Source of the DNA: Onchocerca volvulus
Lineage: Eukaryota > Nematoda > Chromadorea > Rhabditida > Onchocercidae
Length of the DNA stretch: 64,000 bases
Assembly (NCBI GenBank): GCA_000499405.2
Contig: HG738137.1
Span: 3,720,001 to 3,784,000 of the forward strand
Direction of reading: 5' to 3'
The notes under the pieces are model-generated. The model saw nothing but the letters and a program-made list of their open reading frames with translations. It was not told the DNA's origin and did no database searches. Position 1 is the stretch's first letter, and every line of letters starts with the position of its first letter. This document shows, in pieces, positions 11,933 through 58,300 of the stretch. Position numbers and translations under genes: made by a program.

Positions 11933-11952
11933 TATGCAATATCAGCCATCAT
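11932..11952 (-). promoter_or_regulatory. Possible uORF overlapping the SNX27 start
   Basis: On the minus strand two consecutive ATGs (11952 and 11949) open a six-codon frame whose TAA (11934-11932) shares its last A with the SNX27 ATG, giving TAATG. If the mRNA leader includes this stretch, the arrangement would favour termination-reinitiation. The transcript 5' end is unknown, so this is tentative. Confidence 0.35.
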
Positions 11953-12280
11953 ACCATTTGACTTCCTTATTATATTGATGTCTAAAAATTGTTTTTTCCA
12001 CATAATACTACAACATTCTCACACTTGCCGAAACAAACCACTTATGATTAACCCATCAACCTGTCACCTGCAGACTGCAGAATAGCTCGAGAAAGTTGGT
12101 CGATGTGCAAACTAAGAGACCAAGCAAAAATGGCAGATATGTTGGGATTTTAGTGATATAGATAGATGGAATAGGTGAGGTATTTTAGTTTAGAACGAAT
12201 ATTATATTTTTTTTTTGCTCGATCGATCATTCATCAGTGTTGGTAACATCCGTTATTTAAAGTGATTGTGAAATTTGAAG
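11933..12280. promoter_or_regulatory. Divergent promoter region between SNX27 and the LIM gene
   Basis: 348 bp separate the SNX27 start codon (minus) from the LIM-protein start codon (plus). Both promoters must fit here or overlap the neighbouring gene. I see no clear TATA box. The segment around 12040-12110 is less AT-rich than its surroundings. Confidence 0.55.
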
Positions 12281-13035
12281 ATGTTTCGAAGAGGTCGCTG
12301 TTCGAAATGCGCAGAGTCATTTGTGAACGAGGAAGCGATCCTGGTTTGTGGACAATTGTACCACGTAAACCATTTATGCTGCAACTATTGTAATATGCGG
12401 ATATATTACATCGAGGAAGGCTCCATCGTCAATGATAAAATCGCGTGTACTCGTTGTTTTGACCAACTAAACCCCAAATGTCATAAATGCAAAAGATCCA
12501 TTGTCAATGAATATGTCATAAACGGTTTGTCCCTTCCATTCATGTTTTTGTTACTTTCTCTAGTTAAAAACTTCGAGAGCATTTCTTTCAATGATCTAAC
12601 AGCTAACTAATAGCCGATATTTTTTTCAAACAATTCATCTGTAGTCATATCATATGTCCAAGCACATCGCTTTCACAAAATCAAATTCCATATGACAGGA
12701 CTTGAAAACTTTGTTTCCTCCATTCTGTCACTTATCAAAATTAAGAATCTAGTCTTAAAATTTTTAGCTTTTAGTGTTGATTTTAGATCTTTTTCGGATT
12801 TCATAATTCTGAAAGTCCAGAAAAAGATCTACGTTTTTCGTAAATTTAATTGGACATTGCAGATGGCCGTTTATATCACCTTAATTGTTTTAAATGCGCC
12901 CGTTGTCATCGCGTTCTGGATGTGGAATATTTTGAAGATGAAAATGGTCGTTCGTTAGACAGAGACTGCCTTTGGGGGGAAATGCTTATGGATCACATTA
13001 TTCGTGATATTGATAATATTGTTCCTTCTAAATAG
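12281..13035 (+). CDS. Small two-LIM-domain protein
   Basis: Two exons, 12281-12524 and 12863-13035, join in phase 1 to give 138 residues ending in TAG. The first true ATG is at 12281. LIM1 has zinc ligands C7, C10, H28, H31, C34, C37, C56, C59. LIM2 has C67, C70, H87, C90, C93, C96 and C117. The exon junction rebuilds the LIM2 spacing exactly (VIN joined to DGRLYH), which supports the model. The usual eighth ligand of LIM2, three residues after C117, is Gly120, so the second zinc site may use a later residue such as D125 or H126, or be weak. LIM domains bind proteins, not substrates. The protein is almost only LIM, as in LMO- or CRIP-type adaptors, but I cannot assign a subfamily. It is divergent from SNX27 and convergent with NDPK. 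Confidence 0.88.
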
Positions 13036-13314
13036 TGATGTACTGTATGGATCATAAATGAAACAATATAGCATGGTTGTCTTTTAATCATCCTAATCAT
13101 TATAGAATCTTGAAAGTTTCGATCTCCTATTTCTTCCTGGATTATCTGTAAATCGAAGAGATACGAAATTTAGAATCTTCTTGATTTTTAAAAGTGAGTT
13201 TGACACGAAAAATTCAGTTTCATTTGCATTTTTATATTCTTAAGAAATTGCACAACATAAAATTAATTAGAACAATGTTAATCTCTACAGCTACTTTAAA
13301 AAATCTTATCATTT

Positions 13315-14241
13315 TTATTCATACACCCAAGTTGTTGTTGCCGAATTCCACTCACATAATTCTTCTGATTTAAACCAGTGAGCGATTTCACGTTCTGCTG
13401 AAGGTAATGAATCTGAACCATGTACTATATTTCGTCCTGTTTGTATTGAAAAATCACCACGAATAGTACCTGAAATAAAAATTTTTTGATGAAACAAAGA
13501 AAATGCTCAAATTTATCAGAACAATTATTTAATGAAAGAGAATGATACAATTTGATGAGTGTTATTTCATTTCGCATTTCATTATGTTATATTTTCCTAT
13601 CAAATAAAGCCTGTAAAACTAAAAAGTTTTCAAAAAGTTTAAAAAAAGTTTTTCCCTTTTATAGCACTAATTCCTTACTGACTAATCTTCAAACATCAAA
13701 GTACGACAAATAAAAATTAATGCGGAGACAATAAATCCTGACCTGGCATTGAATTTAGAGGATTTGTAGCGCCAAGCATTTGTCGTCCCTGTTTAACCAC
13801 ATCAAGGCCTTCCCATACCATGGCAACCACAGGTCCGGATGACATGTAATCCACTAAATCCTTGAAAAACGGCTTCCCTTGTAATTCTTGATAATGTATC
13901 TGAAATTAAAATTTCCACTGATGAAATTTTACTCATTTTTATATGCTCATAGTAAGTAAACTTTTTCGTTTTGCCACTTCTAAATCAAGGAATTTTGAGA
14001 TCAGATGTGCATTATCTGAACAGTATCGAAATCTGTTCCATCAATACGCAGAGATATGAAAGGAGGAAAAATATCTCATATATGGACTTACTTCCCAATG
14101 TCCTTTTGTAGCTTTCACCATTTTCATAGCAACTAATTTGTATCCTCGTTGTTCGAATCGCTCAATAATTTTTCCAATCAAGCCACGCTGTACGGCATCT
14201 GGTTTGATACATATAAATGTTCGTTCCTTTGTAGCTGACAT
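13315..14241 (-). CDS. Nucleoside diphosphate kinase (NM23 family, group I)
   Basis: Three exons, 14241-14092, 13899-13743 and 13469-13315, give 153 residues, the usual length for this family. The enzyme moves the gamma phosphate from NTPs, mainly ATP, to NDPs through a phospho-histidine; it is normally a cytosolic hexamer. Visible family features: [18 protein letters not shown] at the N terminus with K13, Y53, F61, R89, T95, R106, N116, the catalytic H119 in NIVHGSDS, and the C-terminal WVYE. Every catalytic position is present. The stop TAA is itself part of an AATAAA hexamer (13318-13313), which may act as the poly(A) signal. A 3' splice site lies 29 bases upstream of the ATG. Confidence 0.97.
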
Positions 14242-14269
14242 TTGGCAATCGAACTCCTTTTCTTTGCTC

Positions 14270-14273
14270 TCTG
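14270..14273 (-). promoter_or_regulatory. Likely spliced-leader trans-splice acceptor of NDPK
   Basis: On the minus strand TTGTTTTCAG ends at 14271, 29 bases before the NDPK ATG, with no in-frame upstream exon. This matches a nematode trans-splice site and a short leader. A non-coding 5' exon is the alternative. Confidence 0.55.
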
Positions 14274-17200
14274 AAAACAAGACAGTCCAGAGAATTTCGT
14301 TTTCTTTTGAAATTATACATCGATTATGCAAATTATATCCAGTACCCTGAAATTCTCCGACGGCTAAATCATCCTTTGTTGAAAAATGATGCAATGTAAA
14401 GAACTGTCAAATGTTTTAGAAAATAAGTAGAAGAAAAGGTTTTTATAATTGAGAAGTTCTATCGAGATTATTGTCAACGTTCCGTGTTATATCAGAAAAG
14501 AATTTAGTGACCAATTTCTCATAATTAATGAATTTCGGAACACTTTCTTTAACAAAAATAATAATTACATTAAATAATTCGTATCTAGCATGGGAAATTC
14601 CTAGGTATTTTGGAAGAGAAATAGAACTTGATAGACAGACTATTGATGGCTAGGACTATTGTTCAACACGCATATACATTACCAATGACATATGCAGAAG
14701 GAACAGTGAAACTGTGTAGGGATAAAAATAAGACAATTATTTCACAGCACAACTTCAACTTTTCTTCGTTTAAGTATGAGGCATGTACACTTTATATTGA
14801 ATATCTTAACGGAGAACAGTATGTAGAAAAATATTGGCCAGATCTATGAGTAAACTATTTCCACTATCAGCAGCTCGGAAATTTCATTTCATTCATAAAA
14901 GGATGAAAATTCCAATCTTATGTTATGTCATCTTAACACCGGAAGATAAGGCGTAATGATTTGATGTTGACATAAAGAGATAGTGTCAAGACAAACGATG
15001 TATTAAGAGAACCAATGGTTCTAAATATTTTTACTCCAGTGATTTAAGGTTGAAACAATTCTGAAACACAATAAAACAAATGATACATTTTTGATATTTC
15101 AAACTCGACTTTCAACCATGAAGAACCTTTGTTTGAATCTACCGCTGCAATCTGCAAATCCTAACGAAAGTTTCAATATCAATATGATGGATATAGAAAA
15201 CCACATTAATAGAGTGAATTCGCATGAACTTAAAGAAGAGTATTGATAGTGCTATACATGAAGAGTGAAAGAATAAGGCAAAAATGTATATATTGAAATG
15301 CACGAATGATTACTAGAATAAAGGAGTACCATTCATAGATGGACAAGTGTCAATCGATATTTCAAGTTCCTGCAGTGTTATCTTCGCACAAAACAGAATC
15401 AAGCATAAATGGATCGGAATAAATACCATTATTTTGTCATAAAGCGAATGAATTACACAATACCAACAAAATGCACTGCCACAACCTTAATCACATTTCT
15501 TCAACTCAGTCTCCACGTATTCATTTCCAAATGCGATTATTTCTTTCCCTTGTATAAAACTCTCGGCATAATTCAAATTAACAACTACGTAAAGACAAAG
15601 AGAGCTCGACGAATTCTTGTTACCATAGAAACCAGTGCTAACATTCAACATGAAATAAGTCTTGATCACGTAATTCAATGAAAGGAATTACTACTTTATA
15701 TTCGTCTTTTCACAATATCAAATTTCATTGAGAAAAAAAATGAAAACAAAAGGAAGCAAAAGGAAGCGATAACGATTTGGCTCTTCGAAATCTTTGAAAC
15801 ACTAATAGAAAATATAAGAATTATTTTAAACTTTTACATCATATCTTCCGTCTGGAATTTTTACTCCATCGCTTTAATAATTTAAAACCATACAGTAATT
15901 TATAATTTGATAGCCATATGACAAAGTAATTAATATGAATAAGAAAAATTGTTTCTTCATTCTGGATCAATTAATGTTATTCGCATTTTTGAAAAAAGTA
16001 GACGAAAATGAACAAAAATAAGTTATACAGTAATATGATACGAACATAAAATTAAGCACAACTTCATAAAATCATTGAGTTATTGCAAATATTTATCATA
16101 TCCGCATTCCTTAATGCTCCAAGAGAAATGACACAAAAACCTTAAGCGAATTTAGAAAAAAAGGGACTTTCAAATCATTAGAAAATGATAACAATTTCAT
16201 CAAAAAAAAAATATGTAGATAAATACAACGATACATTTGAATTAATTCACAACAATAAATAACTGCAAAAAATTTGAATAATTATGACTAGCTAAATTCT
16301 TGAGGAATAAAAAACATCTAGGACAATCCATAAAGTAGTAATGATAAAAACTATCATGAACGAGCACGCTACAAGATGAAGGATAATCGGAAATGTCTAA
16401 GCTAATCCGGAGTGTTAAAAAAATGAGTTCCTTTGAAGTCAAACAATGAAAAATCATTGCAGTTCGCTTATTTTCATTTGCAGAACCTTAAGAAACCTTA
16501 CAAATGTGGAGACCGAATAACAGAAGTAAACATTCGAAATATAAACAAAATACTTACCTAAAACAGAGGGTGTTTGGATGCGATAAGTGGCAAACATCGC
16601 ATGGTGGAAATGGTGATAAGAGAACGACCTTAAAATCACCAGGCAACTAAAATAAGGCGCAATCCTTTACTTTTGATTAATACTGCAATTCATTCAGTCG
16701 TGCTAAAATGACTACCCTTACCTAGCAATTTATTGATAAATATAATCTCACTACACTGAAGAGAAGTTCTAAGGCATCATTAGCTCCTGATATTTTTATA
16801 GAAAAATTGTATTTCAAATAAAGTTAAATATTTTCCCCTCAGAAATAGGAAACCATGTCTGCTATTGTCCATTATGTCTGCGTAATTACTAAATTTTAAT
16901 ATAAGAAAAAGATCCTAAATTTCGATCAAAAATTCTTTCATTGGTGGAATTTTGAATACTGCATTATTTAATAATATCTTACATTATGTGCAATTATAGT
17001 CGTGATATGTATGTAAGCTCTATAAATGTAGAATAAGATTATCAAATTTCAGCCAACTAACCCGCCAAGGTTATTTTTCAAGTCTTGAACCAGTAAAACA
17101 TGTGCCTCATAAATGAACTTGCGAAGAAATTTGTTCTTGCAAAAATTGTTTGAAAATGGTTGGTAGTAAACAAAGTAAGAAAGAAACAAATAACAATAAG

Positions 17201-20200
17201 TAGGCAACAGAGAAGATCGAAAAAAGTATGAACTTCCCTTCTCAAAGAAAAACACTGTTATCTGTCTTAGCATCTATCTACTTATCAAGACAGATAATAT
17301 ATCTATCTGTTTTTTGATATGTTATCTTAACAAGCAGTTAATTTGCAATCAAACAGAAGACAAGAAATTTTCAGGTAAGCTATCCTATCAGTCAACATGA
17401 AATGCTCCTAGAAATAGCTCCCAAAAATTTTCATATGATTTGGGTGCTTAATAGTAAATTATGCGTATCGAGAATCTCTTACCTCACCAAAGTACAGAGG
17501 TCACTAAGTTCGAGAGTTCGATAGCCTATTAGACTTGACTGTCTAATAGGATTTAAAATTTAGAAAATAAGACTACATCATTGTACTGCTGGAAGATGCA
17601 ACTTTAAGTTTGACGAGCTAAGCTGACGGTTTTGGACTGAATTGCTACACACCATCCAATCCAGTCCAGAAAGCTATAAATTACTAAACAGCGTTCGCAA
17701 CTGACAATTTAGAATTATAAAAACTATAAGAAAGGTTTCTTTTATGAATATTAGGAATTTTGATGAAACTAATGATGGCACTTAACAAAGTAAATACATT
17801 TAAGAGTGAGACTACAATTAACCAACATAACTAAATGAAGAAGAATAATGTGAATGTATTAATGTCTTTCACCACTAAGATTAATACATGGATGAAAGAT
17901 TAAATGACTCGCCGTTAGTAGCGCTTTCATGGAGATTTGATAAGAGCGTAACTCAATTATCCAACCAAAATTCATTCCGAACAACAAAAATTCTAACCGT
18001 AAACATAAAGGGGTTGAGAAAAAATGTAAAGTAGCGAGTATAACTGGGATAGTTAACCTTTAACCTTCCCCATGTCTAAATACTCCGTGAGCCTAAACTA
18101 ACGCATTGGTAAAGTTTAAACGGTCACGAGTAGCATTATGAAAATCGAATGGTTCTGAAAATGAAAGAAATGGAGGAGCAGGTGGAATAAGGTGACAGTA
18201 AAGATTTCAAAGAAATGTGACAGATGAAAAGCTGCGGGCTGATAGAAGAAAATAAAATTATCATTTGGGTAATCTATTTCTTGATTGTGAATGTTGAAGC
18301 GGGCATTCTAAACTCATGAATTCAGGTTACTCTTCTCAGAAAAGTTATTGAAATGAAATGAAATTATAGATATTCATGGCGTTGATAGCATTTATCTCTT
18401 TCCAATTTTCCATCAGAATGTATCATACTCAAAAAACATAAACATACTGACTTCTCATTTTTACATTACTTTATCGTATTTCTTACTAATTATGCATTTT
18501 GTTGGAAATACTTTTAAGATATTTCCAAAATTTCTGATTTAATGTTATCCTGTATTTCGTTTCGACTTTGGTCGGCATAGTTAACAGTTATGAACCAATG
18601 CAGGTAGATGAAAGATCGATATTTCTGGATTATGCCTTTCAGGATATTGGAAATGTTGGCTTCTTGCTTTAGGCGGATGTAATTCTCAACTATTTCTCTT
18701 CTAGTATCTTGGTTGTATATCAGCTTCTAGGATGCTTGCAGTGTTCGTTATCTCTAGTTCTGTTATTTCGATCTTCATATCACCCTTCCAGCTTCTCGTT
18801 CAACTTTCACAAGCAAGTGTGATTCGCACGAACTGTTGTCTCATCCATGATGTAAAAATGGTTTATTATTGGTGTCACTTTGGAAATATTGTCATTTTGA
18901 GAAAGAGAGTGCAAATTTTTATGTGATGTCTTTCTTGAAATGGCTTGGAGATGAATGCATGATGTTTGATCAACAAACTTATATTAAATTCCTCAACTTT
19001 TGGTTTCTCAGCAGGATCTTCAAGCTCAGAGTCACATGCATGCTATCGAGCATTTTTGAATATCGACAAACAGCATTGGTTAAAAGCATTCTGATGTTCT
19101 TTTGTTCATAATAATAGCTGAAAGCAAACATATGGTTCATAGTACTGCGATTCTATCTAAATCTTTGCAGTTGCTATTCATTGAAACGACGACTATGCGA
19201 GAATTTTTAAATTCCCAAGTACCTTAGAAATACGGAAAGCTGCAAAGCCACTGTATTTTTCAAGACTGCTACACATGCATGCCTAAATGTAATTCATTTT
19301 CTTCAACTGAAAGCAACTTTGCCTGAAGTCTGAAATAAGATAGTCTTTTTATTAGACAGCATAGTCCTTTTTTATCTTTGGCTGGGCATAGTTGTCCGAG
19401 TTAATTCTAATAACGAAGATTTTCATGTTTTATATTTTCTGCGTTTGAGAGATCATTGCTAATGTCATCAATACAAACATCTTTTCAGTATCTCATCTTA
19501 AAGCAACAGTACTGTTTAATTAAAATTTTGAGGATGAAATAGTAGGAAATCAAAACGTGAAATGAACCGACTCTTTTAGATTTTTTCGCAAATTTTTTTC
19601 CAACTATGTTTAATAAATTATCATTGATAAAATCAACAGCAACATGTATCTAAATCAGAATTCTTCTGAAACTTTTTTTTGCATCGATATGTCACAGAAA
19701 TTCCATAGACATAGCAAATGTGCATAAACTAATTGTGAATTGTATTGATGCTTTATGCATCTTTTTTTTGTTAGAACTGATTTTGGGTTAGTTTTTATAG
19801 CTGATATTAGAGCTTATCATTCCATCATTATTGAGATACTGAAGAGCGTAAAGGGATGAAGTCGGAGATAAAACTCATGTCATTTAACGAAATAATAGTT
19901 GTCAATAATAGTTATCGATAATCAACAATAATTAGCAATAATCAGTGATCATGGCAGATGAGGATACTGCTTGCATGATAATTAACCCACAACGATGATA
20001 ATTATTAAATCTGAATGGCTTTTTTTTCTACTGCTGGCCCTTCTCTATTTCCCTCTTCCACGTCACTATTGAAAAGGCTTTTTAAAAAAAGATCAGATTT
20101 TGGCTATTATTTACACTATTAGGCACTCTTTAAAAGGCCTATCATTCACACAACGATAAACAATTTTTTTTTTTCTTCTATGAATTATAATCCATTCTTT

Positions 20201-21725
20201 GCATAAGCAAAAATGGTTGGGAAGACAGATCTGTTCGGATAAATAAACTACAAAGTAATTTATGATTTCCATAGCAGATGATAAGATAAGGCACTTAATG
20301 AACTTATCATAGTTGACTATAGGAAATTGTATTTTTCTCTCTTGTTTGGTGCAAACCGATTAAAATATATGATAGGAGAAAAAAAGAAGCTCTAGAAGTT
20401 GCATTTAATCACTCATTGAAGTTTCTGAGATAGAATTATCAACGAATCAGGCCGTCTGTGATTGATTTTGCTGTCTGAGAAAGCGATTGGTTGGCCTCAT
20501 TTTATGTTTCCATACACTTGCATTGCCTTCAGGCATGTTTTCTCATTCAGACTTTCACATGCAGTCTGTTTAAGGCCTGTTTTTCTCGACAAGTCTCCAT
20601 TAGTCAGGCCTGAGAAAGATTCAGAGAAACGGATAGAAGTCAGAAAAATCGTATTTACTTTTGCACCATTTCCATTTTCTATATTCTTCTCAAAAGCTGC
20701 ATTCTATCCAAGCACTAAACAACTCTGTCTCATTTTAAAAGCATTCTTGCTCTTTATTCATTCATTCCTGACTAGGCCAAAGTACTTTCAAGCCTAATAT
20801 ATCCATAAATGTTGTTTTTACTTCTTCCTTTATCTCTTCAATTTTTACTTCTTGCATGTTTGTACCACCTACAAGAGATCGCTTAAATATTAGGTGCCAC
20901 TTATCGATTATTCTTCTTTCTAACAATATCTTTAAGTGCTGGATATTCAAATGCAAAAAAAAAGTGATTTGACAGTCAATATATGACGTCAATGAGGTGT
21001 TTGCTTGCCATTTTTCTAAAATTAATAATGCAATCATTTATTCCGCTTGCCGTCCATTCTATCAGTCTTCTTTTTGTAGTATCAGTTTTCTATGAATACG
21101 ATGATATGATAGCAAACTTACTCATTCGATTCGTTTCTGGAAGCTTTTGAGATCACTTCATTAGGCCAATAAGCATTCAAAATTGTCTTCCTTACTACAC
21201 TCTTAAGCATTTTATTCATACTTTAGAGTATTACTTATATAGAAAACAATTTTGCTTAGACAATTCCACGAATCTCTTTTCCTCTTTTCTCTCATTTATT
21301 TACTTATTTTTTTTTAAATTATAAAAAATTTCATAAATTTATTCTATGATTAAAATTCGATAAAGACATCTATTGAATCGTTTTCTCAAATTAAACTGGC
21401 AAGTTGTTTGTTTCTAGACGCATAACAGAACCAACTTATCACTTATCAATTGCTAAGATTTTTCACTTGTTTTTGACGAGTTTTATTATATTTCAGATCT
21501 TGCTTCATTAAGCATTAATTAATAATCTGACTTTTCTGTATATAATTTATCTATTTATAATTAAAAGAGCAGAAATGATAGAAATAATATTTAATTTAGA
21601 TTAAATTGTCATTTATTTATCTGTTGTGATTGAGTCCAGTTTTCTTGAGTGAATTCTATATATTAGCAATGAAGTGAATTCTTTTTCCAGTTTTTTAACT
21701 ATCCAATCTATTTTGTATTTTCATC
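14274..21725. other. Large region without a recognisable gene
   Basis: About 7.4 kb of AT-rich DNA. Open frames up to about 110 codons occur (for example 15409-15681 + and 20462-20797 +), but none shows a family motif, steady amino-acid composition or matching splice sites. Two strong minus-strand donor-like sites sit near 16555 (TTTTAG/GTAAGT) and 16722 (GCTAG/GTAAGG) and could mark unseen 5' non-coding exons. A perfect stem-loop lies at 17525-17550. AGGCCTG words recur around 20445-20620. GATA-like words cluster at 17285-17335 and 19900-20310. Confidence 0.5.
17525..17550. repeat. Perfect 10-bp stem-loop
   Basis: CCTATTAGAC, six-base loop TTGACT, GTCTAATAGG. The pairing is perfect over 10 bp and does not extend into the flanks, so it is too short for a typical microRNA precursor. 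It stands alone in a gene-free region. Confidence 0.75.
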
Positions 21726-21727
21726 AG
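21720..21727 (+). promoter_or_regulatory. Likely spliced-leader acceptor of the cysteine-module gene
   Basis: A T-rich tract ending in TTTCATCAG closes at 21727, ten bases before the first ATG. No upstream coding exon is apparent, so a trans-splice acceptor is the simplest reading. Confidence 0.5.
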
Positions 21728-21737
21728 GTTGTTCGGA

Positions 21738-24700
21738 ATGATGCATCCACGTTTTTTTTCATTTTCATCAACAACAAAAGGTCATCCAGTATTACGATTA
21801 TGGCTAAACGTATTGCTTACTGTATGTTTGCTACCACTTTGTAACGCCGTGAAATGTTTGGATTGTGTCGGCAAGGATTGTATGGGAACATTTTGCGAAG
21901 GTGACTATTGCATTCTCGGGACATATGCTCCGCGATGGGGCACTGTGGAATGGGGAGAACCACGTACGGTCAAAGGTTGCGTGAGTGGACGAATGATGGA
22001 AAAAAATGTCAGAAGTCACTGCGAGACTGCCGATGGAGACGACGAGGTTCTGTCTTCTTTTTCTAATTTCCATTTAGTCATTTTTCATAATGCAAGAGAA
22101 TGAATTGCAATTTGAAGCGTGAAAGCATTGATAATAAATGACTTCAGTTCAAGAGATATTTATCCAGCAAATTACATATCAAAAAACATATTTCCATAGC
22201 AGAAAATAGAAAAGCTAATGGAAATAAGAAAGATAGCAGGCAGAAAAAATTGTTTTTCTTGAAATCTTCTTTATCTATTTCTTCCTCTTAGGAATCTGAA
22301 GCATTCTTTTTCGCATTTTATTTAGAGCATTAAAATAACTTGTCAATTTTGCTTCTTCTTACCATAATTTTACAATAAAATAAATGCGAATGATTTTACA
22401 GATATTGAATGACGAATGATTTAATTTGTAATGCTAAATCTCATTTTATATTTTGAAATCATCCAAGGGAATTATAAAAACACAAAGATTAGGAAGATGT
22501 TATAAATTTCATCGTGTCTAATGGTAGATTGCTCAGAAAAGAATCACCGTTGGAAATACTGCGGTTTTTATAGCCATTTTGGAGAATCTATAGTTTGCTA
22601 ACAGTGCTTAGAACACTTAGGAATTCAATACAAGTTACTTTTTTAACGAAATTTTACGTCTTATTTGATACGATGAAATATAAAGCAAAAACAAAATGAA
22701 AAAGAGATGATACACAGCTCGGCTAATCTTCCTACTAACTGAAGCAACAAATATTACGGTGAAATTACTTGGAATTAAAAGACTAATTAATTAATTGATT
22801 AATTAAAATAAAAACTGGTGATTCTGAAGAATTCAGAGCCTCGAATCTAGAAATGATGAGCAATTATCAAGTACCTTACAGGAGCCATTTACTTGCTTTT
22901 GTGATAAAGACTACTGTAACAACGACAAAGCGATCCGACGATTGGAGACCGTATCAGTACCACTTATCACATGCGTGTGTAAAGGAGTTCATTGTGAAAG
23001 TAAAACCTGTATTGGTGAGATGTGCTCTTATGTAGTCAACCATCGCACTAAAAAGACTGAACAGGTCATTTCCTTGTTTACACTATCTTAAATCCTCAAA
23101 AATGGCTGACTTTTAAATTGAAAACAAAAGTATGGAAGATGAACTGAACTTCTTTTTTATCTAAATTTCAATGTCTATTAAAAGATATCGAAGCATTGTT
23201 GGCTTATTCGGGAAAGATGAGAATTTCATTGCAATAGCTAAATCCATCTGCGAGACACACTGCATTTTTCAGAAAAGTCAAGCACTTTTTTTGTGTTCTT
23301 TCTAACGAAAGCTAAGCTGTCCAACTGTGAAATATTTATCATATAAAAATTTTGTTAGTTATGACAAGCTTCTAAGAGTGTCAACCATTAGAGCATTCTT
23401 TCTGTTTCCTTCATGTGAAGTGAAGCTTCTGAAACGTGAAATGAAACTTCTGAAGTATGAAGCTAGCGAAAATGTAAAATGTTATTTAGGGATGCGTGAA
23501 TGCTTCAGTGCCCTTAATCGAGAGAAGATCGGCAGATTCCTGCATGATTCCACCTATTACTGGTGCCATGCATCATACAGTTTCCAAGGATCCACATGAA
23601 TTACTAGCGACGGAATCATGTGTATGCATGACTGATTACTGTAACACTGAGAAGCCGGAAATTACGCAACCAGAAAGAATGAAGTGTCAGACGTTCGTTA
23701 CACTGGAAGCAATGGGCACTAAGGTAATAAATAGTCTGCAAATAATTGGAATTACTATGCAGAGCTTATTTTCTTACTTAGAGTGGTAAGTAGACTTTAA
23801 TAAGACGTCCTGCCACATTCTAATTTGATTATCAGGGCAAACTTCGTGAGGAATGGAGTGATAAAAGTGAAATGTTGGATTTTCTCTTCTTTTAATATGT
23901 CCATGAAACGGGGAAATAATTGAATGCACCATTCAACCAGACAGGCTAAGTTTCTGGATTCATTAGATTGGCTATAAAATATTTTTCAGTTAATAAATGT
24001 CATTGAAGAATATCAATATTGATGACAACTTCATTCACACTCGATTACTTTAACACAGTTTTGTAGGTAACATCACGAAATACAACATGCACCGGTGAAT
24101 TTTGTTTTAAAGCTTCCATCAAAAGTAAGTTGGGCCATATGACAGAATATAAAACGATGGGTTGTGCATCATTTCTAGATGGAGCTGAACTTGCTGAAGA
24201 ACTGCAGCCGACGGGTTGTGCACGATTCGAATCTGAAAAAGTGGAAGTTGAGTCTTGCTTTCAGGTAATTTCTTTGTTTATATATTTGATAGACAATCGC
24301 AATAAATTTTCAAGAAAACACAAGACTCAACTTGTGATAAATGATTTCGATGATACTGAATAATGCACTAGCAATAAATTTGCAGATGACAGCTAATTAA
24401 TACTTAAAGTTTTTAATTGTTATCAGTTCCGACGTTATAACATTTCTTACTAAAAAATACAATTTAGACTAATGACAGACGCGCCATAGCAAGAGCTCGA
24501 GCAAATCAGGAAACCGTTTTACCGAGAGGGAAAAGTAAAGAATCCAAATTCAGGAAAACAATGAAGTAAATTCACATCAAATCCATCTCTTTTTTTTTCG
24601 AAATATGTAAACTGATTAATATACTTAATGGATGGTAATAATTTCAATAATTTTAGGAAACCGCCTAAAATGGAGCTAGATTATGAAGATGAAGATAACA

Positions 24701-26464
24701 AAGAAGAAGAAAAAGGGAAGAAGGGGGTAGAAGAGGAAGAATCGAGAAAAAAACAAAAAGTTACAAGTAAGTGCCTTTCTTAAATCTTTTGCTTTTTTGA
24801 AATCAAATTGATATATCTATTTACAAAATTAGCATGATAAATTTATTTAAAAAGAGCTCTTGAAGTTTATTATTGCCTTTAGAATTCTACTGCATTAACT
24901 GCAAAATCTGTTTCAACGGCGTCAGCTATAAATATCTTCATAATATATAAATATAGCATGCAATTTTTTTTCTTCCTTCCAACATCGTGCCCAATATCTA
25001 AAGTTTTAACTTATGAATCAATGTAATGGTTTTGAACACTGAACAAACAAATCTTATTTTGACAGGAAAAATTCTTCCTAATCTCAACTTCAAACTATTT
25101 GATTTGAACGAAAAGTGAGAAAGAAAAAGTGTGAGTAACGTACCAAACTTTGGCGTATTCTTTCATTTTACTGTTTACTGAAGCCGATAGCTGAGTTTAT
25201 AGGTATAAAATTATACTCTCCATTTCCGCAATATCTAAGATTTTCAAATCTTTGAGGTGTTTGAGATGTCAAATAATAAATGGACAAAAAAGGCAATATG
25301 AATTTCTCAGAAAACTGTCAGTCGATACTTCACTGTTTCACCAAGCATACTCGATTTTCTAAATATAATTGCAATCGATCATGTTGAACATCTCTTATTT
25401 CATGAAGAACCTCTAGTTTATCTTGAAAGGATTTGGAAAACCAAAAGAAACATTGAGTTTTTCCAAAAATCCGCTAATATATAAAAAATCATAGCAAATA
25501 GTATGAATAAATATTTGAACTATTTATTTCAAAATTCCTCCATTTCTGATTCTTGTGCATAGGAACAAAAATTCCTTGTTACCGAAGGATTTAATAACTG
25601 TTTCACGAAAAAATGATTTTTATGCTTATTGATTGATTAGAGCAAAAGCACAACATAATTTCTACGGAAAGACTATTAAATAAAGGAAATCTTTGAAATT
25701 TGAGCTTTTTGGAATAAATCTGGAACAAATTATCTTGCAAAAGTTCTATTCGATCTAATTTGTGATTAGTAATTCAGGTCAAACCTATAAAGAAGGAAGA
25801 AGAAAAGAAGACAGGAAAGAAGAGGAAGACGAAATTGAAGAAGAAATAGGAGAATATGAAGAAGGAGAGAAAATGGATGGTAAAAAGGAGAAAAACAAAG
25901 AAAGTGCAGGAAGTAAAGATGACGAGGAGTATGAAGAGGAAGAAGAAGAGGAAGAAAAAGAAAATAAGGAACAAAATGAAGGGAAAGTTAAGCAAACTGA
26001 CGGAAAGGTGAAGTTTTTTTTCTACTTTTTATGCTTCATTCGCCTGATTTGATGGCTCTAAAATGAAAAAGGATCGGTAAAACTGATCTGATCTACTGAT
26101 TCTCAATATTATGTTTTTGATCAGATAAAAGAGTTTGAAATAAATCGAGAATTATTTCAGGAAAGAATTAATTTATATTTTGATGGATTGTTTTAATAAT
26201 TTTCATTCATCAAATTGTTCTTTTTTTTTTTTGACTTTTCTCCCTAATATCCTTTTAATAACTTATGTTTATTTTTAGACAACAACAGCAATGTTTATAT
26301 TTGAGAAGCCAACAGAACCACCGATTCCGGATGATTCGAATATAACACTGATAACGGTATTCATTTTAATTATGGTACTGATAGTAATGTCCGGTGCCGT
26401 GTGGAAACTTCAACTACACAAGCGATTATTTCGCGCGAACTACGACACTGTAGCGGGCGGTTAA
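21738..26464 (+). CDS. Type I membrane protein with three ET-like cysteine modules
   Basis: Eight exons: 21738-22046, 22882-23064, 23490-23723, 24067-24264, 24468-24565, 24657-24766, 25778-26007, 26279-26464. All phases agree, giving 515 residues to TAA. A signal peptide (LWLNVLLTVCLLPLCNA) precedes module 1: KCLDC, KDC, GTFC, DYC, GC, HC, then CFCDKDYCN. Module 2 repeats the plan (CVCKGVHC, KTC, GEMC, GC, SC, CVCMTDYCN). Module 3 is shorter (TTCTGEFC, MGC, TGC, ESC) and lacks the final CxC..D.CN. The 8-10 cysteine layout fits the nematode ET module; Ly6/activin-receptor three-finger domains end alike and are the alternative. Exons 6 and 7 encode a Lys/Glu-rich linker. One helix near residue 475 (ITVFILIMVLIVMSGAVW) leads to a short basic tail. 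A cell-surface or shed role is inferred; no ligand is known. Confidence 0.85.
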
Positions 26465-33662: not shown

Positions 33663-36600
33663 CAAAACCATCCTTATTCAGCTGTCTATTTAAAAGAACG
33701 CAGCATAATTTTGGAAATGCTTTTATTTTGCTATCATTGTCGATATTCGATGAAAGTTCAGATGTTAAGGATAACATGGAAATGAGAAATAACGATTTAT
33801 CTGAATTGAGTTTCTAATTACTTCTTCCCTAAACTTCTATTTTTCGTTTGGAATATCGCCTGCTTAAATACTTGCTTGATTATATCTCCTGAGTGGCAGT
33901 CACTGATGGAATAAAATATAAATTCATACGAAATTTTCAGATATGAAATTATTTAACTTCACAATTCTAGTCAGACTAAAAGAGATTGATTTGGAAAATG
34001 CGAATATACGAAGCAGTTATTGGATTCATCGTTATGAATCTTCTTAATATAATTCGCTGATTTTTCATTTTGCTGTCACTGTTCAAAATTCGAAGTCATT
34101 GAATCTTCCAATAAATTCATTAATGCCGAAGAATTCGATATTTTTTTATATTTTAAAAATTTCTTCAATTTAACTTCTCGAATATTTTTGAAAAAGCATG
34201 CGTTCAGATGTTGTGAATCTATTCTAAAAAAGTCATCTATGTATTGATTTCCAAATATTTCAGTTTCGGTCTAAAACTTTAATCAGTCAAAACACTCTGT
34301 CATTAATTGCTAACTGCAATATTTTTTCTTTCCAGATTTGCTCTTAAAATTCTGAAGGCATCAAATTCAGCTGCAATAAGTATTTTTTTTTGATATAATA
34401 ATTTTGTTTATATTTTTTATTCTTGTCGCAGATTGTAGGAGATGGTAGTTGATTCGTAGAAATTATTGAAACTTTGTTCATGTCGATGGAGTCGCAAGGC
34501 ATTGGCACTTATTTCATCTGCTCGGCTATGACCAGTTTCTATTTAATCTAAAATTATGGTTCATTTTACCAATAATTACTAATATATGCAAACTGGGTCG
34601 ATAACACATGATTATCTGAAAAAAAATCTCTCGGTACTTTTGTAGCAATCAAATAATTTTAACGTTATCTAACGCAATGTACATCTGTTTTGTAATAATC
34701 TTTCTAGGTTCATATGACAGTTGTATGGGTTGCTTATGTTGAAACTCACTAATTTAGACTAGTAACTGTATGTTTTATCTAAATTTGAGTATTGACTAAC
34801 GAATTTGAAGCGACATTTCCTTGTTCGACTGAAATTCTGAGGTGTTAATTGTGATGTAGATATTTCACTTTTCAAACATTTGCCATTCCTATATTACGAT
34901 TCATACCGTATTTCTCGGACACAAAGAGTAGCAATTAATTTTTGCAAAACAAATATTTATTGAACAGCAATAAATCTACACATTTGAAAATCATTATTTC
35001 GTGGATGTTAATTGAAATGAAGATTGAAATCAACGAATGATTTTGGACTATGAGATGAATTTTTTGGAAAATATTAACTGCATTTTATATATGAGCAACT
35101 ATCGTTACAGATATCAATTATTTATTGCTATTTATATCATTCAGACTTCTACATTAAATTTTCAACATCACATCGTCCCATCCTTGCATTACTTTTATTT
35201 TGTTTGTACAGATCGTACAGGCAAATAAATGATTTCGAATTACAGCAGTAACAATTGCTATTGTTTTGATCACGTGTTTCTTGCATAATATTATTCGGAG
35301 AGGATGTCCGAATTTTTCGATTAATCACTTGTTTCACACATCATTCGTTTTCGTTTGTTCATCCACTTTTAAAAGTAATAAAACTAGAAATGGTACAGAT
35401 GAATATTTCCTTTTGTCGAAACAAAATGGAATTTTTGAAATGATAATTTAAAAATGAAATATTAATTTTGTTTGGGGCAATTTTTTTGGATCATGTCTTC
35501 TTTATTTGCACCAGAATTGAATGAAGAATTGAAATGCAAGAATTAAGATGAGGTAAGGAGTTGACGAATGACAAAAAAGATTGGTCAAAGATAATTGAAG
35601 AAAAAATGAAATGACTAGAAAGTGCTTCGAAGAAAGATCATTTGCCAATGAAGATGATCACTTTTAATGCTCAGAAAAAGACCATTGGACAAAAGAATGA
35701 AGTTGATCACTTTTTCTGCGCATTAAAACTTAAAGAAAAATGGCATTTCTAGTCGATAAATTTTTGTAACTGTAGAATTGTAGGAAGCACATCAAAAGTT
35801 AGTGAAAAAGACGTTGAAGAGATTTTAAGAAAATAGTGGGAAATTAAAAAAAAATAACTTTAATAAAGTGTTGAGAAATGCTTCGAAGAAAACTGTAAAA
35901 AAAATAATATAAATTTACTTTTTGGGCCAGTTCCATGCTATAAAAATGTCATTAAGAATTTGCTTTTTTCAAAAACTTATTTTCGGTATAGAGCAGGCCA
36001 AAAAGTGAATAATAGTAATGATGGTGATTCTGGTCCATTTGTTAGGACTGAATTCTGCAAAATATTTTCTCGGTTCTGATTCATCACATATTTGAATTAT
36101 ATAAGATCAAGAATTGTTTGAAGAATTTCAATATATTACTTATATTAAAAAAACAAGTAGATGTGAGTTATAAATAGTTGAAATAAGAATTCAAAAAATG
36201 GCGATATCCATGGAACTATATCAATTAATTTTTTAATGATAAAAATTATTCTGAAATATCTAAATTTAATTTCTAATTTACTGTGAAACAAGCAGAAAGA
36301 AGAAATGAAAGAGCTCAATATTACTATAGGGAAATGATATTCGAATAAGATGGATGCTTGTAAGTTTAATATTTTCTTACGTAAAAAATTAATATCAAAA
36401 CTCGGTCAAAAATGAAAGTTAATCAAAAAACACTGTAATTAGTGATTTATGATGAGCCAATGAAAAATGTGAAATGAAAACGAGGAATGGATACTATTTG
36501 CTTTTTTCCGTTGCTTTGCGGTTCTCATATCTCTTTTCAAAATGCTAAATGACATCATCACACTATGATTATTTTACAATTTCGGCAATAATTTCCTGTA

Positions 36601-37409
36601 AAATTATTTTTCTAAATATTCCAAAATATCGCATAAATTACAGTACATACCGCCTAATACAAACAGAACATAAGCTCTGGTTGCTTTGACAGTCTTCACA
36701 GAAATGTAACAGCACAACAAGAATCATTGTTGACCATCAAACTCATCAAACTAAGAAATTTCCTGTACAATGTTTCTCTCTCCAGTTTTCTCGCGTGTTG
36801 TCTTGGACGATAAGTCACTCCTTGGTTAAATCAAAAGGCATGAAGATTTCAGAAGGAAAGGAAAAGAAGGCAACCGCAGAGGAACTTTGCAGATAGACAA
36901 ATTTAAAAAAAAAAAAAAAAAAAAAATAAAAAGTTTGTTGTCATCCGTGTTCATTTTGATATCGAAGAAACGAGCTAAATTTGATGACATTTTACATTGA
37001 TGAATACCTGTACGCTGTATACTTATATTTATGTACCCGTAGTTCACTATGTAATAATAGATATATCTGTGTAATTGGCGTATTATCTTTTGCAAATAAA
37101 AGTAAAAATTTAAAGTCGAAAAAAAATCTGTAAGTGCAGTGTCGATTCCACCAATATTTTGTAATACTTTTAAACTGGTTTAAAAATTTTATTCAAATTA
37201 TCAAAATTTTCCATAAAATTCTTTTTATGTGCTGAATACAAAATATCCTCAAGACTTTGCAATCATGGATGATTGAATTTATATGTTTTTGCTGGCTTGA
37301 TAAAGTCGTAACAATCTTAGTAACAAAATCTGAGAGCCTACAAAGTATTTTGCCATTCTCTGGAAAACATATGACCGATGCATATTTAATTCGCTAAAAT
37401 ATTTGTGTC
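33663..37409. other. Intergenic between the Helitron and SNW1 remnants
   Basis: About 3.7 kb, AT-rich, with only short open frames and no family motif I can name. Some of it may be further Helitron sequence upstream of the helicase remnant that has decayed past recognition. A poly(A) run lies at about 36904-36925. Confidence 0.45.
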
Positions 37410-37766: not shown

Positions 37767-38705
37767 TGTAGAAACTCAGAACCGAACTGATCTGCTCCAA
37801 ATCTGAATTTTTTAAATCAACATGATCTCAAGGCGCCACAAATTAGGAATCTGCAATTATTGTCGATATAACCGCAAAGGCAAACAATATATATACTGTA
37901 ACTTACACATGTGAATCAAGATATGCATTTCACCGACGCTTCTTAGATGATGATGAATTTTCATCAATTGCTTTCTTCTTCTTCAACTTTTTACTCGATT
38001 CTTTGGCTGATTGCAGCAACTAGCCGATACTGAAGATATCCTCTTCCTCCTTTTCGAAGTCAGCAGGTCCAACATTGCGCACTGCTCCAGATTCGGCAGC
38101 ACTGAATCCCTTATCAGGAACGAATCGATTGGTACTAATTATACTACCAAAACATCACCGTAAAGATCTTTATCAAGATTTTTATTCGGTTGATTAAATA
38201 TGTTTTTAAATATGAGCACACCACGGTTTATTGTATGCACTATATGTTTTTTCAGCAATATCACCACTACCTAATCCTTTCGACTGATCAAATTGCGTCT
38301 CATGATACCTTGTTCGCACATCCGGTAAACCAAATACGATTTTCTCGCTAATATCCCTTTCCCAACCCTTCTTAAACCTATCTAATTTATTTGAATTGTC
38401 TCGAGCAATATTCTTTAACGACGATGTTCACTCAGACGACCACGCCTAATTTGATCACGTTCACGAGCTTCTTGGCTTATTGAATCATTTTCATGTACTT
38501 TGAGTACAATATGTTCTTGTCTAACTTTAGAAGCCACAGCCCTCATCTTCTTTTCCTTCCCAACCTTCTTGTTTTGAGCGTCACGACGTTCCATCTGTGC
38601 ACGCGTTTTGACAGCTTCACAAGCTATGTGATCAGCCAAATATAATGATTCCGCTAACTTGGCAAATTTTTCATTGATAAATTTGATATAATTGATATAA
38701 TTTCC

Positions 38706-38807
38706 TATCCATTCATCACTTGTTTCAACTATCGATGCAACCTCATCGTTAAACAATACCTTTTTTGATAAGTAAGATCCAGTACTCAACATGAAACTTT
38801 TATTCAA
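38706..38807 (-). pseudogene. fabH: fabH 5' fragment, probable Wolbachia origin
   Basis: 34 codons from a TTG (38807) read LNKSFML, then STGSYLSKKVLFNDE, then VETSDEWI. This is the N terminus of bacterial beta-ketoacyl-ACP synthase III, where TGSYLP-KVLTN and TSDEWI are hallmarks. The match stops abruptly after DEWI, before the RTGI motif and the catalytic Cys. It directly follows a plsX tail on the same strand, as in the plsX-fabH operon of Rickettsiales. It is inserted in the SNW1 pseudogene and cannot make the enzyme. Wolbachia is inferred from the nematode host; no database search was possible. Confidence 0.8.
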
Positions 38808-38813
38808 TGTGAC

Positions 38814-38909
38814 CTACCTCACTAACTTTTTTTGGTTTAAATTTTCATTAATAACACTCACTGCAAATTTTATAGCGTGGGCAAAAGAAATAGCATCTGA
38901 ATTTCCGTG
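38814..38909 (-). pseudogene. plsX: plsX 3' tail, probable Wolbachia origin
   Basis: 31 codons starting HGNSDAISFAHAIKFAV and ending in TAG (38816-38814) match the C terminus of PlsX, the phosphate acyltransferase, where an SHG-DA-FA-AI motif is conserved. The frame is intact to its own stop. Six bases separate that stop from the fabH TTG, so a bacterial gene junction is preserved. The left break joins the SNW1 pseudogene at a shared CA(T)CA. Confidence 0.75.
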
Positions 38910-39015
38910 ATGTACCTACTGTAAGCCTCTGCCATCAGCAGCCAGTCGTTTATCCAGTACAATAGTGAATTCTTTTGGATTCTTCCAATTCAATATGCAT
39001 GGCAGAATTATGCCC

Positions 39016-51056: not shown

Positions 51057-53353
51057 GTGTTATCAAGCAGTTCAAGTCTTAAATCATCATCAAGACAATT
51101 CTGTTATCAGTTCAGACATCGGTATTTTTAAGACTGCTGCACAGATATTCCAAGTTTGTTTCTTTCCAGTTTTCTCTTCGTCTTCTGCGTATTTTTGAAG
51201 GAAGATATTAGGCTGATCGTTTTTCCTTACGACCCATTCAAACTTTTTGATGCTTCAGCCAACATTTTCATTGTCTTCACATCTTGCATGCACTTCTGTG
51301 ATCCATTGGTGCTCTTATCTTTGCAATCCACTTTTTAAACAGTTTAAATTACTCGGCGATCCCTGTATTATAATCATTAATGTCCTATTTTGCATTATAA
51401 AGAGAAATAATACTTCGTTCCATTTATAAGATATTTTATTCTAAAAATCTGTAAAAAAAAATGGCCTAAATCAAAGGTAAAATTTCCAGAAGCCTCATTC
51501 ATTCTACCACTCATTTTACGGTGAAAATTTCTATACATAAAGATGAAAAACAGTTTGCGTATTTTTAATCCTTCTATAAAAAATTTATCTGCATCAGTTA
51601 GCAATAATCAGAATTTTTCCAAAAAAAATTCAAATGTTTATTTAGAATCAGTACAGCTAATATATTTAACCAATTTGAAGGACGGAAGTTTTCTGTGAGA
51701 TATTAAATAATGCCTGACAAATTGATTCCATGAAATAAAAAAAGAAAAAAGATTGCAAAATTTATAAGATATCCTTTCAAATAAGCCTCAGCAGTATTGA
51801 GGAGTCCATTATACAGCATTTGCCATTATTTTGAGACTATATATCTTTTAGGGCATATTTCATTGGAGCAAAATAGATAAAAGATTGAATTGGATCAGAC
51901 CGAGCATACTAACCGAAAAAATATATTGCCAATTCATTTCTTTTCTATTATACTATCAGTTTACAACAAATGCCTAAAATACCAGTTGTTAATATATCCT
52001 GTGAAAAAAATAGATTGTAATACATTTCATTAAAATCAATTGAACTGAGCATTTCTTAATTATAAATAATTATAATACTCATAACTCTATTGCTTTTATT
52101 GATCACTCCCATCTCTACAACATTCCACAATATATTCATCTTTAAAAAGCAAATTTACACAGGAAAAGTCGGAAGATCATATGTACTGATGGTAATGCTG
52201 AGTAGAAATCTGATCAAATCTGCGATGATTTTAGTTTTGCCTGCCCATTTTTATCATAAGTTACTGACTAATTTTTTCTTGACAACTAATTACTGATGAA
52301 AATGATAAAAATGATAAGAAAGGATAGTGAAATCTTCGAACAGCTGAAATTTCTTACAACATGTTAGATTGCGATGAGAGTAAAAATAACTCGTACTGAA
52401 AAGTTGAAACAATTATATCTTCGCATTATCAATACCGATGGATCTTTTCATTAAATTCTTGAGTGCACAAACTACATTTTAATAACAAAGGAAAAAGGCC
52501 ATTTTCAGTTCGCTACTCAAAGCTTTTTTTAATGATTAATTCGGGAAAAACGACAACATATAACATCCATTCGTGCCAAGACATTTTCAGTTTTCTCTAG
52601 GCTATTTCCCCATTTAACTGGGACATGCCTAATATTTGACCAAAGAAATTATGAACAATATATTGTTTCATTTCTCCTTTTCTGTTCCTAATTTTTCCTG
52701 TTGAATCTATAAAAAATGACTTTATTGCTACAATAAAAACAATCAGATATTGCTTCCTTTTGTTTGTTGATCTCTCAGTCAAAGTGAAATATGGTCAAAG
52801 AACTCGAAACGAGAATCGAAAGATTTGAAATAATGAAAGTGTGAAATATGAAGCATTAAGAATTGTTATTATTCATTTAAGAAATTTACATATATTTCAG
52901 CAAAGTGAAGAATGAAGAGACAAATAAGGAAATTACAATGAAAACGAAAGGCATATTAAAAAAATATGCAGTACACAACCTTATATGAAGCCAAGTGAAA
53001 AATAATATATAAGCGGCCAAGAAAAAATATTAACAAAAAAAAAAATAACGATATGTCGTAATTTTAGATGATTTCGAAACAATGCAACGAATTTTAAAAC
53101 TATAAATCAAAAAATGTATTCGTTTTGGCAAAAATATATTATCTAAAAAATATTTATTACAACAATAAATATCCGGAAATCTCAATTTTCAGTAGATTTC
53201 ACGTCCAATTTTGCAATTGTAGCCCATAGTTGACAAAAATATAATAGGAAAGTCTGAAAATGTGGAATGAAAATAAAATTCTAAAACAACAGTAATAAAT
53301 ATATGCGATAATAGCGTTAATAATAACAGTGCTAATAATAACAACAGTGATAA

Positions 53354-55399: not shown

Positions 55400-58300
55400 T
55401 TAGCAAATTCGCAAATCATCCATTATGTTTATCTCTCCATTTTGAAAAAGAAGTATTTGAGTTGGCGGACACCAACGTGACATTTCCCATACAGATGTTG
55501 GCTAAAATATTTAATCTTTGAGAAAAAACTGAATATTTGAAATGCTCGTCCTTTCTAAGAACAAAAAACAAAAGATATGCAAAATACTTCAACTCACCTC
55601 TTCTCCCCAAGTTTGATATTTGTTAATTAGTTCTCGCAATGATTGTACTAGATAGTGGTTCGCAAATTCTACCATATTTGAACTAGCATATGAAAAGAAC
55701 ATCTTTTATTCAAAAATTTGCAAGAAGGAACCATAAAACTATGCTTCGTTTGTTTCTTCAAAAAAAAAAAAAAAAAAAAAAAATAATCTAAATAAAGAAT
55801 ATTGAAAACAAAATATACTTTTTTGGATCAAGAAGCTTGCAATCTTTAATCCTTTGACAAATGATCCTGTTCAAATGCTCATCAAATAATGGAACACCAA
55901 AAATACAGTCAAGTACTGTGTAATCTGCATATGTTTCATCGTCCCGCAAATGAACTCGAAGGTTCGCGATTTTTCTATAAATTTAAGATCTGATAAATTT
56001 TAAACAAAACCTATTAACACCAAGTTCTGCCTATTTGATACCTTGATTAGTGCTTCCTACGAGCTAAATCACATAACTTTACATACTGTTTTTACTTTAT
56101 AGTAAATGATTATGGAATTGTTATCTTGTTTGCACTGATTATCAAATAAGAAAGTTTGTAACCTTTTCCTGGGAAGAATATAGCGACACATCGAAAAATT
56201 AATATTAGTACACAATTATAGTAACAGAATGATTTATTTTGATTTTTACTAGCATTTTTAGTTTTGATTCCTCTGCTAAAAATTTTATCGTGGCTGAGAT
56301 TAAAAATCACAATACTTGAAATACATGGCAGAACATCGATAATAATACTAAAAATTAAAGAAAAAATTAAGACCTTGGGTCTTTGTTGACCGTCGTGCTA
56401 TTACTTTTTCTATTCTTCTGCGCCTGTTCTTCCCATTCAGCAGACTTCTTTTTGCACAACAACGTTAAATAACCACATAAAGAATTTAGTCCCAACTTTT
56501 CTCGGAGTTTTAGTACTGAAGGGTGTGATGAAAAATGACCTTAAAAAAATCCAAAAAAACTAATGTGAAAATAAAACTTTTAGCTTATGTAAATAACATA
56601 AAAATAAACAGTTAAAGTCAAGATATACTGAGTAGCTCATTATTTTTGTGTATAAATTTTTCTCAGTATTCTAATCCGATATCAAAGATGCGAAAATCAC
56701 CATTTATTAAGCTGGACTCAGTAAATGGGAAAGGGACACTTACAACCTCCGAGTCATCAATCACAGCACTGTATTCCTGAAAGCAAAGCATATTTTCAAA
56801 AAAATTTTATATTACAGAAATTTGAATGTTATTAAAATTTCAAATTACAAATTGTGAACAAGAGTCCTAATTCTCTTCATTGATATTACGAATTCTCAGT
56901 AATGAAAAGAAGAAAAAGAAACAAAACTAATAGCTCTCTTTGAATAACGAATTAAATACTACGCGATTCTAATATTTTAAGATTATCAGTTTCCTAAATT
57001 CCACAAGAAATAATATCGGATACACTACGAAAAATTGAAAAAACCTAAAAAGAATGAAAGTATTCTATAAAATAAAGTCTTAAAGTTGCCTAAACTTCAA
57101 TATCTTCGACATCGTTTGATTCTCTAGATGAAAATAATATTAGTACAAAAGTGTACTTGTACAAATATTGCATGCATTTGAAGCATGTCATTCAGTTGAA
57201 TTAAACAGTTATCTACTGGAACGATGACAGGTTCATGAGAAGCAGTAGTAATTAGTAAATGTTTGCATCTGCGTAGAGCACAAGGAATAATTGGGACGCG
57301 CGAGCCCTTGGGAATGAACAGCGAAACTGGTCCATCACCTGAGGTACAATACAAAAACAATCGAAACCATGACGAAACCACCTGCAACTATGCTATTACG
57401 AAATAATTTCTGATGATACAGAACGATTATATACAAATATTCCCCTTTTCTGGAAGATTTTTTCTGCCGATTATCGATAAATACTCTCTGAGTTAATCCA
57501 GTTTTTGGAAAAATCCAATTAAAATTGACATACTTCTGGAATAACGGTTCCCAAATGAGGAATAGATGGCACTGACAATGGACATGCTTCCCCGCTTAAC
57601 GGAGCCATTGAAACCAAACACCTTAATTTCAATTTCAAGTGAGAAAAATTGATTTAATAATCATGAATCTATTTTCGCGAAAATAATCATTAACTAAATT
57701 TGAAAAAAACAAAGGTATAAGTTATCAGAGGAAAAGTTCCTTATAGGATTTGCCGGGGGACAATGGACAATAGTTTCATAAGGTAGAACCAATAAGACTT
57801 TCCACAAAGCGCTGAATTTTTGTTCCTTAAAATTAGAAAAAATAATTGAACAAATAACAGAAGCAACGATTATTTATCTAACGAAACGAATAGAGTATGG
57901 AGTGGACGTTATTCAGCTATTTGATAGTAATGCTGGCATCCTTTCAGAAAAATAGAATGTTTAGGAATTCAGAAAATTATGTACTCTCCATATGCGAGGA
58001 ACCTTTAGTTTCAATAGACTTTGTACACAACCTTACAGTGCAATTGTAGACTTATCCCTCAAGTTACATCTTGCTTTTTTTTCTAACCTGTATGTTTTGT
58101 TGATGAGGCGCAGACGTGTAGGTTGATCCAACGATAATAAACTTTCACCTCTAATTAAATCCAATTCAGAACTACTTCGCAATGAAATAATCGTTAATAA
58201 CAATGTCTGAGCATGTTCTGAATATTTCTGTGCTTCACCTTCCATAAACAGCTTCACCTGAATCAGCAACATTAACAAAAATGGTACATCTCCTTTGAGT

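Follow-up and report, generated by a model that had tools for sequence, protein, structure and literature searches.

How did the junction of two adjacent bacterial genes, plsX and fabH, come to lie inside a nematode pseudogene? The junction is found in the window, the whole 64-kb stretch of DNA analysed here (G000:C2:3720001-3784000, from the 94,684,704-bp Onchocerca volvulus assembly of 115 contigs). A first-pass annotation had placed about 204 bp of plsX-fabH on the minus strand at 38706..38909, between two blocks of an SNW1 copy, and had named Wolbachia as the natural donor. We find that the insert is 230 bp long and is a genuine nuclear Wolbachia transfer (nuwt) inside a processed SNW1 pseudogene. 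Across the window, only two stop-to-stop frames reach at least 150 aa, and Rfam (gathering cut-offs) and ARAGORN detected nothing. The features of the locus and the sequences related to it are listed in Table 1.

A seven-protein alignment of Wolbachia FabH was used to scan bacterial genomes and led to the matching locus (L010, NC_018267.1) in wOo, the Wolbachia of Onchocerca ochengi. By blastn, 38707-38909 of the window aligns on the minus strand with 2898-3101 of this locus at 90.2% identity over 204 columns with one gap. BLAST against Wolbachia thus returned a strong plsX-fabH match and not a blank, and both the donor and the extent of the Wolbachia part had been annotated correctly, the latter to about two bases. 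When 7 kb of wOo was searched against the whole worm genome, the piece scored E 1.1e-71, ruling out a chance match. At E<=1e-20 it is matched by 39 of 41 genomes of the genus Wolbachia; the two non-matching genomes, G003 and G018, gave best E values of 0.205 and 0.0648. In the wOo search and in this comparison across the genus, the best match of the insert is Wolbachia DNA.

Translated on the minus strand, 38707-38909 reads as a PlsX-like end followed by a FabH-like start. Both genes had been said to keep their family hallmarks; this is clear for the FabH half on the NCBIfam model TIGR00747 (E 1.5e-7), whereas the PlsX half alone is weak on TIGR00182 (E 0.029). Pfam gave no match for either short peptide. 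Although Pfam is silent and the PlsX profile weak, the DNA match to wOo settles the identity of the piece. In wOo, PlsX ends in ...GHIE and its TAA overlaps the TTG start of fabH within ATTGAATAAA. This string is the same in nine of 30 Wolbachia loci, the remaining 21 either not fitting the text pattern or lying in the opposite orientation. The insert is short of one base about 20 bases before the overlap. Because this deletion shifts the frame, the piece appears to carry a PlsX stop followed by a 6-base gap, and was so annotated; stop and gap are artefacts of the deletion, as the genes overlap in wOo. Restoring the frame gives the last 36 PlsX codons plus the stop, instead of 31, and about 33 FabH codons, close to the 34 first counted.

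Table 1. Features of the insert, its surroundings and related Wolbachia-derived sequences in the O. volvulus genome
Feature	Position in window	Strand	Position in wOo	Remarks
Whole insert, 230 bp	38680..38909	minus		Absent from intronless SNW1 copies; placement ambiguous by 1 base (common T)
Wolbachia fragment	38707..38909	minus	L010 2898-3101	Last 36 plsX codons with 1-bp deletion, TAA overlapping fabH TTG, first ~33 fabH codons
25-bp filler GAAATTATATCAATTATATCAAATT	38680..38704	minus		Resembles repeats of host flank ATATCAAT; wOo alignment ends at 38707
SNW1 retrocopy, 5' part	38910..39009	minus		5' truncated, runs to GTACAT; 86% to C4 copy over 100 bp
SNW1 retrocopy, 3' part	37810..38679	minus		Intronless, small insertions/deletions; PF02731 E 3.2e-10; 80% to C4 copy (37908-38679), 74% to C5 copy (37810-38679)
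Chimeric nuwt	57703-58057			Two Wolbachia loci joined
Chimeric nuwt, part 1	57703-57953		375623-375882	251 bp, 90%
Chimeric nuwt, part 2	57950-58057		512383-512491, reverse	108 bp, 96%
Two old nuwt pieces	37180-37363		798101-798171; 109456-109542	28 bp apart; 83% and 78%
Decayed nuwt	56042-56163		843272-843374	76%
Weaker nuwt	51284-51333			86%, E 2.2e-7
L006			L010 2685-3371	687 bp, 95%
L007			L010 2916-3050	135 bp, 83%
L008			L010 2493-3125	633 bp, 72%
L009			L010 2954-3466	Three pieces, 72-76%

The insert has a host SNW1 retrocopy on both sides, inside a contig of 28,345,163 bp. The SNW1 context proposed for it holds, with the SKIP/SNW domain (PF02731) matched on either side of the insert (E 5e-11 and 3.2e-10) and intronless paralogues that are without exactly this insert. 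In the worm genome PF02731 has ten matches at five places. These are the intron-bearing gene on C3 (L158), intronless copies at C4:6590919 and C5:8704088, a pair on C4 at about 1.55 Mb, and the window. The C4:6590919 and C5:8704088 copies are uninterrupted at GTACA/TATCAATGAA, exactly where the window carries the insert. The minus-strand member of the C4 pair (~1.553 Mb) is more diverged and also runs through without it. Compared with this pre-insertion site no base has been lost, and the edges have at most one base, a T, in common. The full insert is made up of about 205 bp of Wolbachia DNA and 25 bp of filler, the latter overlooked in the first-pass annotation. As to the copies themselves, SNW1 has several without introns (L156, L157 and L159); the one near 6.59 Mb on C4 has a 332-codon open frame, and the two of the C4 pair at ~1.55 Mb lie in opposite orientations.

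The order of events can be read from the exon structure of the parent gene. The relevant L158 intron ends AAAG/GTACAT, and the window reads TAG/GTACAT, already spliced, with the insert 6 bp farther on. The insert aside, the exons of L158 are found joined in unbroken window sequence, and the parent introns are missing. Because the exon junction beside the insert was already spliced, retroposition preceded insertion. The 3' flank of the retrocopy has only a short A run, TTTAAAAAATTC. As the insert is separated by only 6 bp from a boundary between SNW1 exons, one might suppose that a mobile element brought it in or that it derives from retroposition of a chimeric transcript, the more so as PMC12693587 reports for O. 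volvulus an enrichment of nuwts in the vicinity of Pao LTRs and for Onchocerca an association of nuwts with the density of helitrons. We regard this as very improbable. A transposon-type target-site duplication is absent from the edges of the insert, and only Wolbachia sequence and filler lie between the two parts of the pseudogene. The exon junction next to the insert is intact, contrary to a retroposed chimera. The other four copies of the plsX-fabH junction in the worm genome differ in extent and have no flanks in common past the Wolbachia part (blastn, 6 kb). A chimera spliced exactly at the exon junction was also considered and rejected, the insert being 6 bp off and the junction intact.

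Among the 30 of 41 Wolbachia genomes compared base by base, wOo is nearest to the insert (184/203 bases), followed by G014 (179/203) and then by genomes at 170/203 or fewer. In a maximum-likelihood tree built without the three most decayed nuwts, the insert forms a group with wOo and L006, one of the nuwts (support 91/62), that is nested in a cluster also containing G014 and G015 (97/97); the end branch of the insert is 0.082. With all five nuwts included, the fork holding the insert has a support of only 53/75. The branching order inside the wOo/G014/G015 cluster is thus weak (91/62). These comparisons establish the donor as a Wolbachia closely related to the symbiont of present-day Onchocerca.

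In the insert, wOo and G014, 171 of the 203 sites are identical in all three and one site has three states. The insert alone differs at 10 sites, G014 alone at 13 and wOo alone at eight. The 10 differences of the insert fall 4, 3 and 3 on codon positions 1, 2 and 3, while 14 of the 21 sites that differ in wOo or G014 only are at codon position 3. This spread is in the direction expected for decay without selection, though with such small numbers it is suggestive at most. The frameshifting 1-bp deletion points the same way. The insert probably has no function of its own and would have decayed as neutral DNA.

These distances also bear on whether the locus is real. wOv and wOo are 99.51% alike according to PMC5310847. 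As the insert is about 10% from wOo, the transfer is old and not recent contamination. Our analysis covers a single assembly, and to that extent leaves room for an assembly artefact, or for contamination by Wolbachia reads that were assembled into worm sequence. Such an origin is very unlikely indeed, because the two parts of one pseudogene meet at precisely the site that is uninterrupted in the paralogues. It also fits poorly with the divergence from wOo and the frameshift, given the likeness of wOv and wOo, and with the presence elsewhere in the assembly of four other copies that are from 95% to about 71% like wOo.

How the piece was joined to the pseudogene may be reflected in the filler. 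Similarity to Wolbachia ends at ~38705-38707, after which the minus strand reads GAAATTATATCAATTATATCAAATT and then host TATCAATGAA. The left join has no microhomology, and the right join is masked by the filler. The filler contains ATATCAAT and ATATCAAA, and ATATCAAT is also contained in the native site. With 40 bases of native site the filler has five 6-mers, three 7-mers and one 8-mer in common. Of 200,000 random 25-mers from the window, 946, 1,488 and 5,171 equal this sharing for 6-, 7- and 8-mers, respectively; if either orientation is counted, 2,527, 3,801 and 12,155 of 200,000 do so. When the bases of the filler are shuffled, 1,634, 2,176 and 9,762 of 200,000 permutations do as well. 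In direct orientation the sharing is therefore reached or exceeded by 0.5-2.6% of window 25-mers, with the boundary and the site both chosen post hoc, and the excess of flank words is a modest statistical one. At a lowered cut-off, TRF reports an array at 38674-38703 with a period of 9, 3.2 copies and 76% matches; its score of 37 falls short of the tool's default threshold of 50. The filler does not recur elsewhere in the window at three or fewer mismatches.

We think it probable that a full account of the locus consists of a retrocopy, the later capture of symbiont DNA at a germ-line break by theta-type alternative end joining, and neutral decay. An SNW1 mRNA was first copied back into the genome to give an intronless pseudogene, as the anatomy of the copy shows. 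At a later time a double-strand break may have occurred in this pseudogene in the germ line. The break would then have been joined through a scrap of Wolbachia DNA of ~205 bp, with the target neither lost nor duplicated. One join is direct, and the other gained ~25 bp, presumably by repeated copying of adjacent host sequence. Filler of this kind would correspond to the templated type left by polymerase-theta-type alternative end joining, and the insert may since have decayed as neutral DNA. We propose end joining because the filler holds flank-like words and because the chimeric nuwt of the window is joined at AAAT. In germ cells of C. elegans, experiments have established templated insertions next to breaks as a hallmark of POLQ (PMC4490562). 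The same paper gives for theta repair in this worm a typical loss of ~7-13 bp and single-base homology at most simple junctions. The insert has no microhomology at the left join and no target loss, and this counts against the theta reading. Since these two marks are missing, we liken the insert to a theta scar and do not class it as one.

The absence of left-join microhomology and of any lost target base would equally suit classical non-homologous end joining of the same nuwt, in which nucleotides were added at random or by slippage and the likeness of the filler to the flank arose later through replication slippage in an AT-rich stretch. The AT-rich filler and host flank do form the low-scoring period-9 array noted above, and slippage of an AT-rich run at a later date could yield the same repeat. 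Against this, flank words are in excess over both window 25-mers and base shuffles, and the flank repeat is not expanded in the C4 and C5 copies. We therefore see classical joining as possible but rather unlikely, and retain theta-type capture at a break as the probable route. Literature searches on Wolbachia or filarial transfers with microhomology or non-homologous end joining returned no title on filarial nuwt edges, and a search including fabH found no paper containing this gene; neither result is proof of absence. On the side of a theta-type route, the worm genome has family-A DNA polymerase exons (PF00476) at G000:C4:1378284-1381143, which may belong to either theta or mitochondrial gamma.

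We also examined the surroundings of the insert. Positions 5001-64000 (59 of the 64 kb) were compared with wOo and G014, with 40 of 76-132 candidates scored per search. Further nuwts were found (Table 1), including a chimera of two Wolbachia loci that have four bases, AAAT, in common at their join (57950-57953). The pair of old pieces at 37180-37363 sits about 450 bp past the 3' end of the SNW1 copy. In 5001-25000 the best E value among the matches listed was only 0.005. Chains of unrelated symbiont fragments would be the outcome expected of end joining of loose fragments.

Beyond the window, the plsX-fabH junction is present at four further places in the worm genome (L006-L009), making five in all. 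We initially suspected a single repeat family and dropped the idea, as the copies differ in their extents relative to wOo. Because of these different extents, L006-L009 are independent transfers, and they apparently differ in age. By blastn in 6 kb, the four copies have no flanks in common beyond the Wolbachia part, low-complexity sequence aside. Between the window and these four loci, blastn found only the 204-bp piece, short low-complexity matches and one match to L008. The last, of 98 bp (77%), pairs window 36217-36314 with L008 738-832 outside the Wolbachia part and is perhaps an interspersed repeat. In control wOo sequence, a depth of five is reached by three of 48,000 bases. The depth at the junction looks high, but this region was selected for having a nuwt, and where sequence is conserved old copies stay recognizable.

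The first-pass annotation had implied that such an insertion is rare. Together with the five copies of the junction, the published record, in which transfers of this sort are counted by the hundred, argues otherwise. Four stretches of wOo totalling 54,966 bp have 161 nuclear matches among those listed, 134 at E<=1e-15. Three control stretches, together 48,000 bp and not picked for a nuwt, have 135 among those listed, 115 at E<=1e-15; as queries of 16 kb each they had 40 of 41, 48 and 71 candidates scored. The unit of these densities is alignment pieces and not insertion events, conserved worm and mitochondrial genes are left in, and one or more duplicated pairs are counted, C3:14092733 and C3:14113543 among them. 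Scaled up to the whole wOo genome (957,990 bp), either set gives about 2,300, an approximate value with sources of error on either side. PMC5310847 and PMC12693587 give for O. volvulus 531 NUCMER matches and 576 gene-based regions, and an HMM set at E<1e-30 with 818 matches in 653 regions, 96% of them supergroup C. Although the methods behind ~2,300 and the 531-818 published matches differ, the comparison suggests that published nuwt counts for O. volvulus are conservative. The plsX and fabH parts of the insert, at ~100 bp each, could by our estimate fall near the per-gene cut-off of E<1e-30 used in one of these studies.

Tentatively, one may extend this to filarial chromosomes in general, with symbiont DNA entering mainly as filler of germ-line breaks through theta-type joining, often as chained scraps, and far oftener than has been catalogued; we put this forward as a conjecture that could well fail. 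Retrocopies of a known gene supplied the pre-insertion site here, which makes both edges legible and allows a repair route to be proposed. Applied to every nuwt that hit duplicated host sequence, this approach would reveal the way in which DNA of endosymbionts gets into animal genomes. If published counts are indeed conservative, this could also matter for assays of symbiont clearance based on Wolbachia genes.

Like the O. volvulus nuwts described in Cotton et al. 2016 (PMC5310847) and Vancaester et al. 2025 (PMC12693587), the insert is a short, mostly broken Wolbachia fragment in a nuclear chromosome. It differs from those published in that the uninterrupted target site is known and both edges are readable nearly to the base. 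With the polymerase-theta scars of C. elegans, as PMC4490562 presents them, it has in common a filler resembling break-adjacent sequence, those scars being small deletions (~7-13 bp) with mostly single-base homology and some templated inserts. Unlike them, it holds captured foreign symbiont DNA, has lost no target sequence, and would owe its joining to an enzyme that we infer. Numts and nupts are likewise cytoplasmic DNA captured at breaks, with chimeric inserts and neutral decay as here, but in this case the donor is an endosymbiotic bacterium. The insert is thus a known kind of transfer, ordinary as a single locus, with edges that are unusually well resolved.
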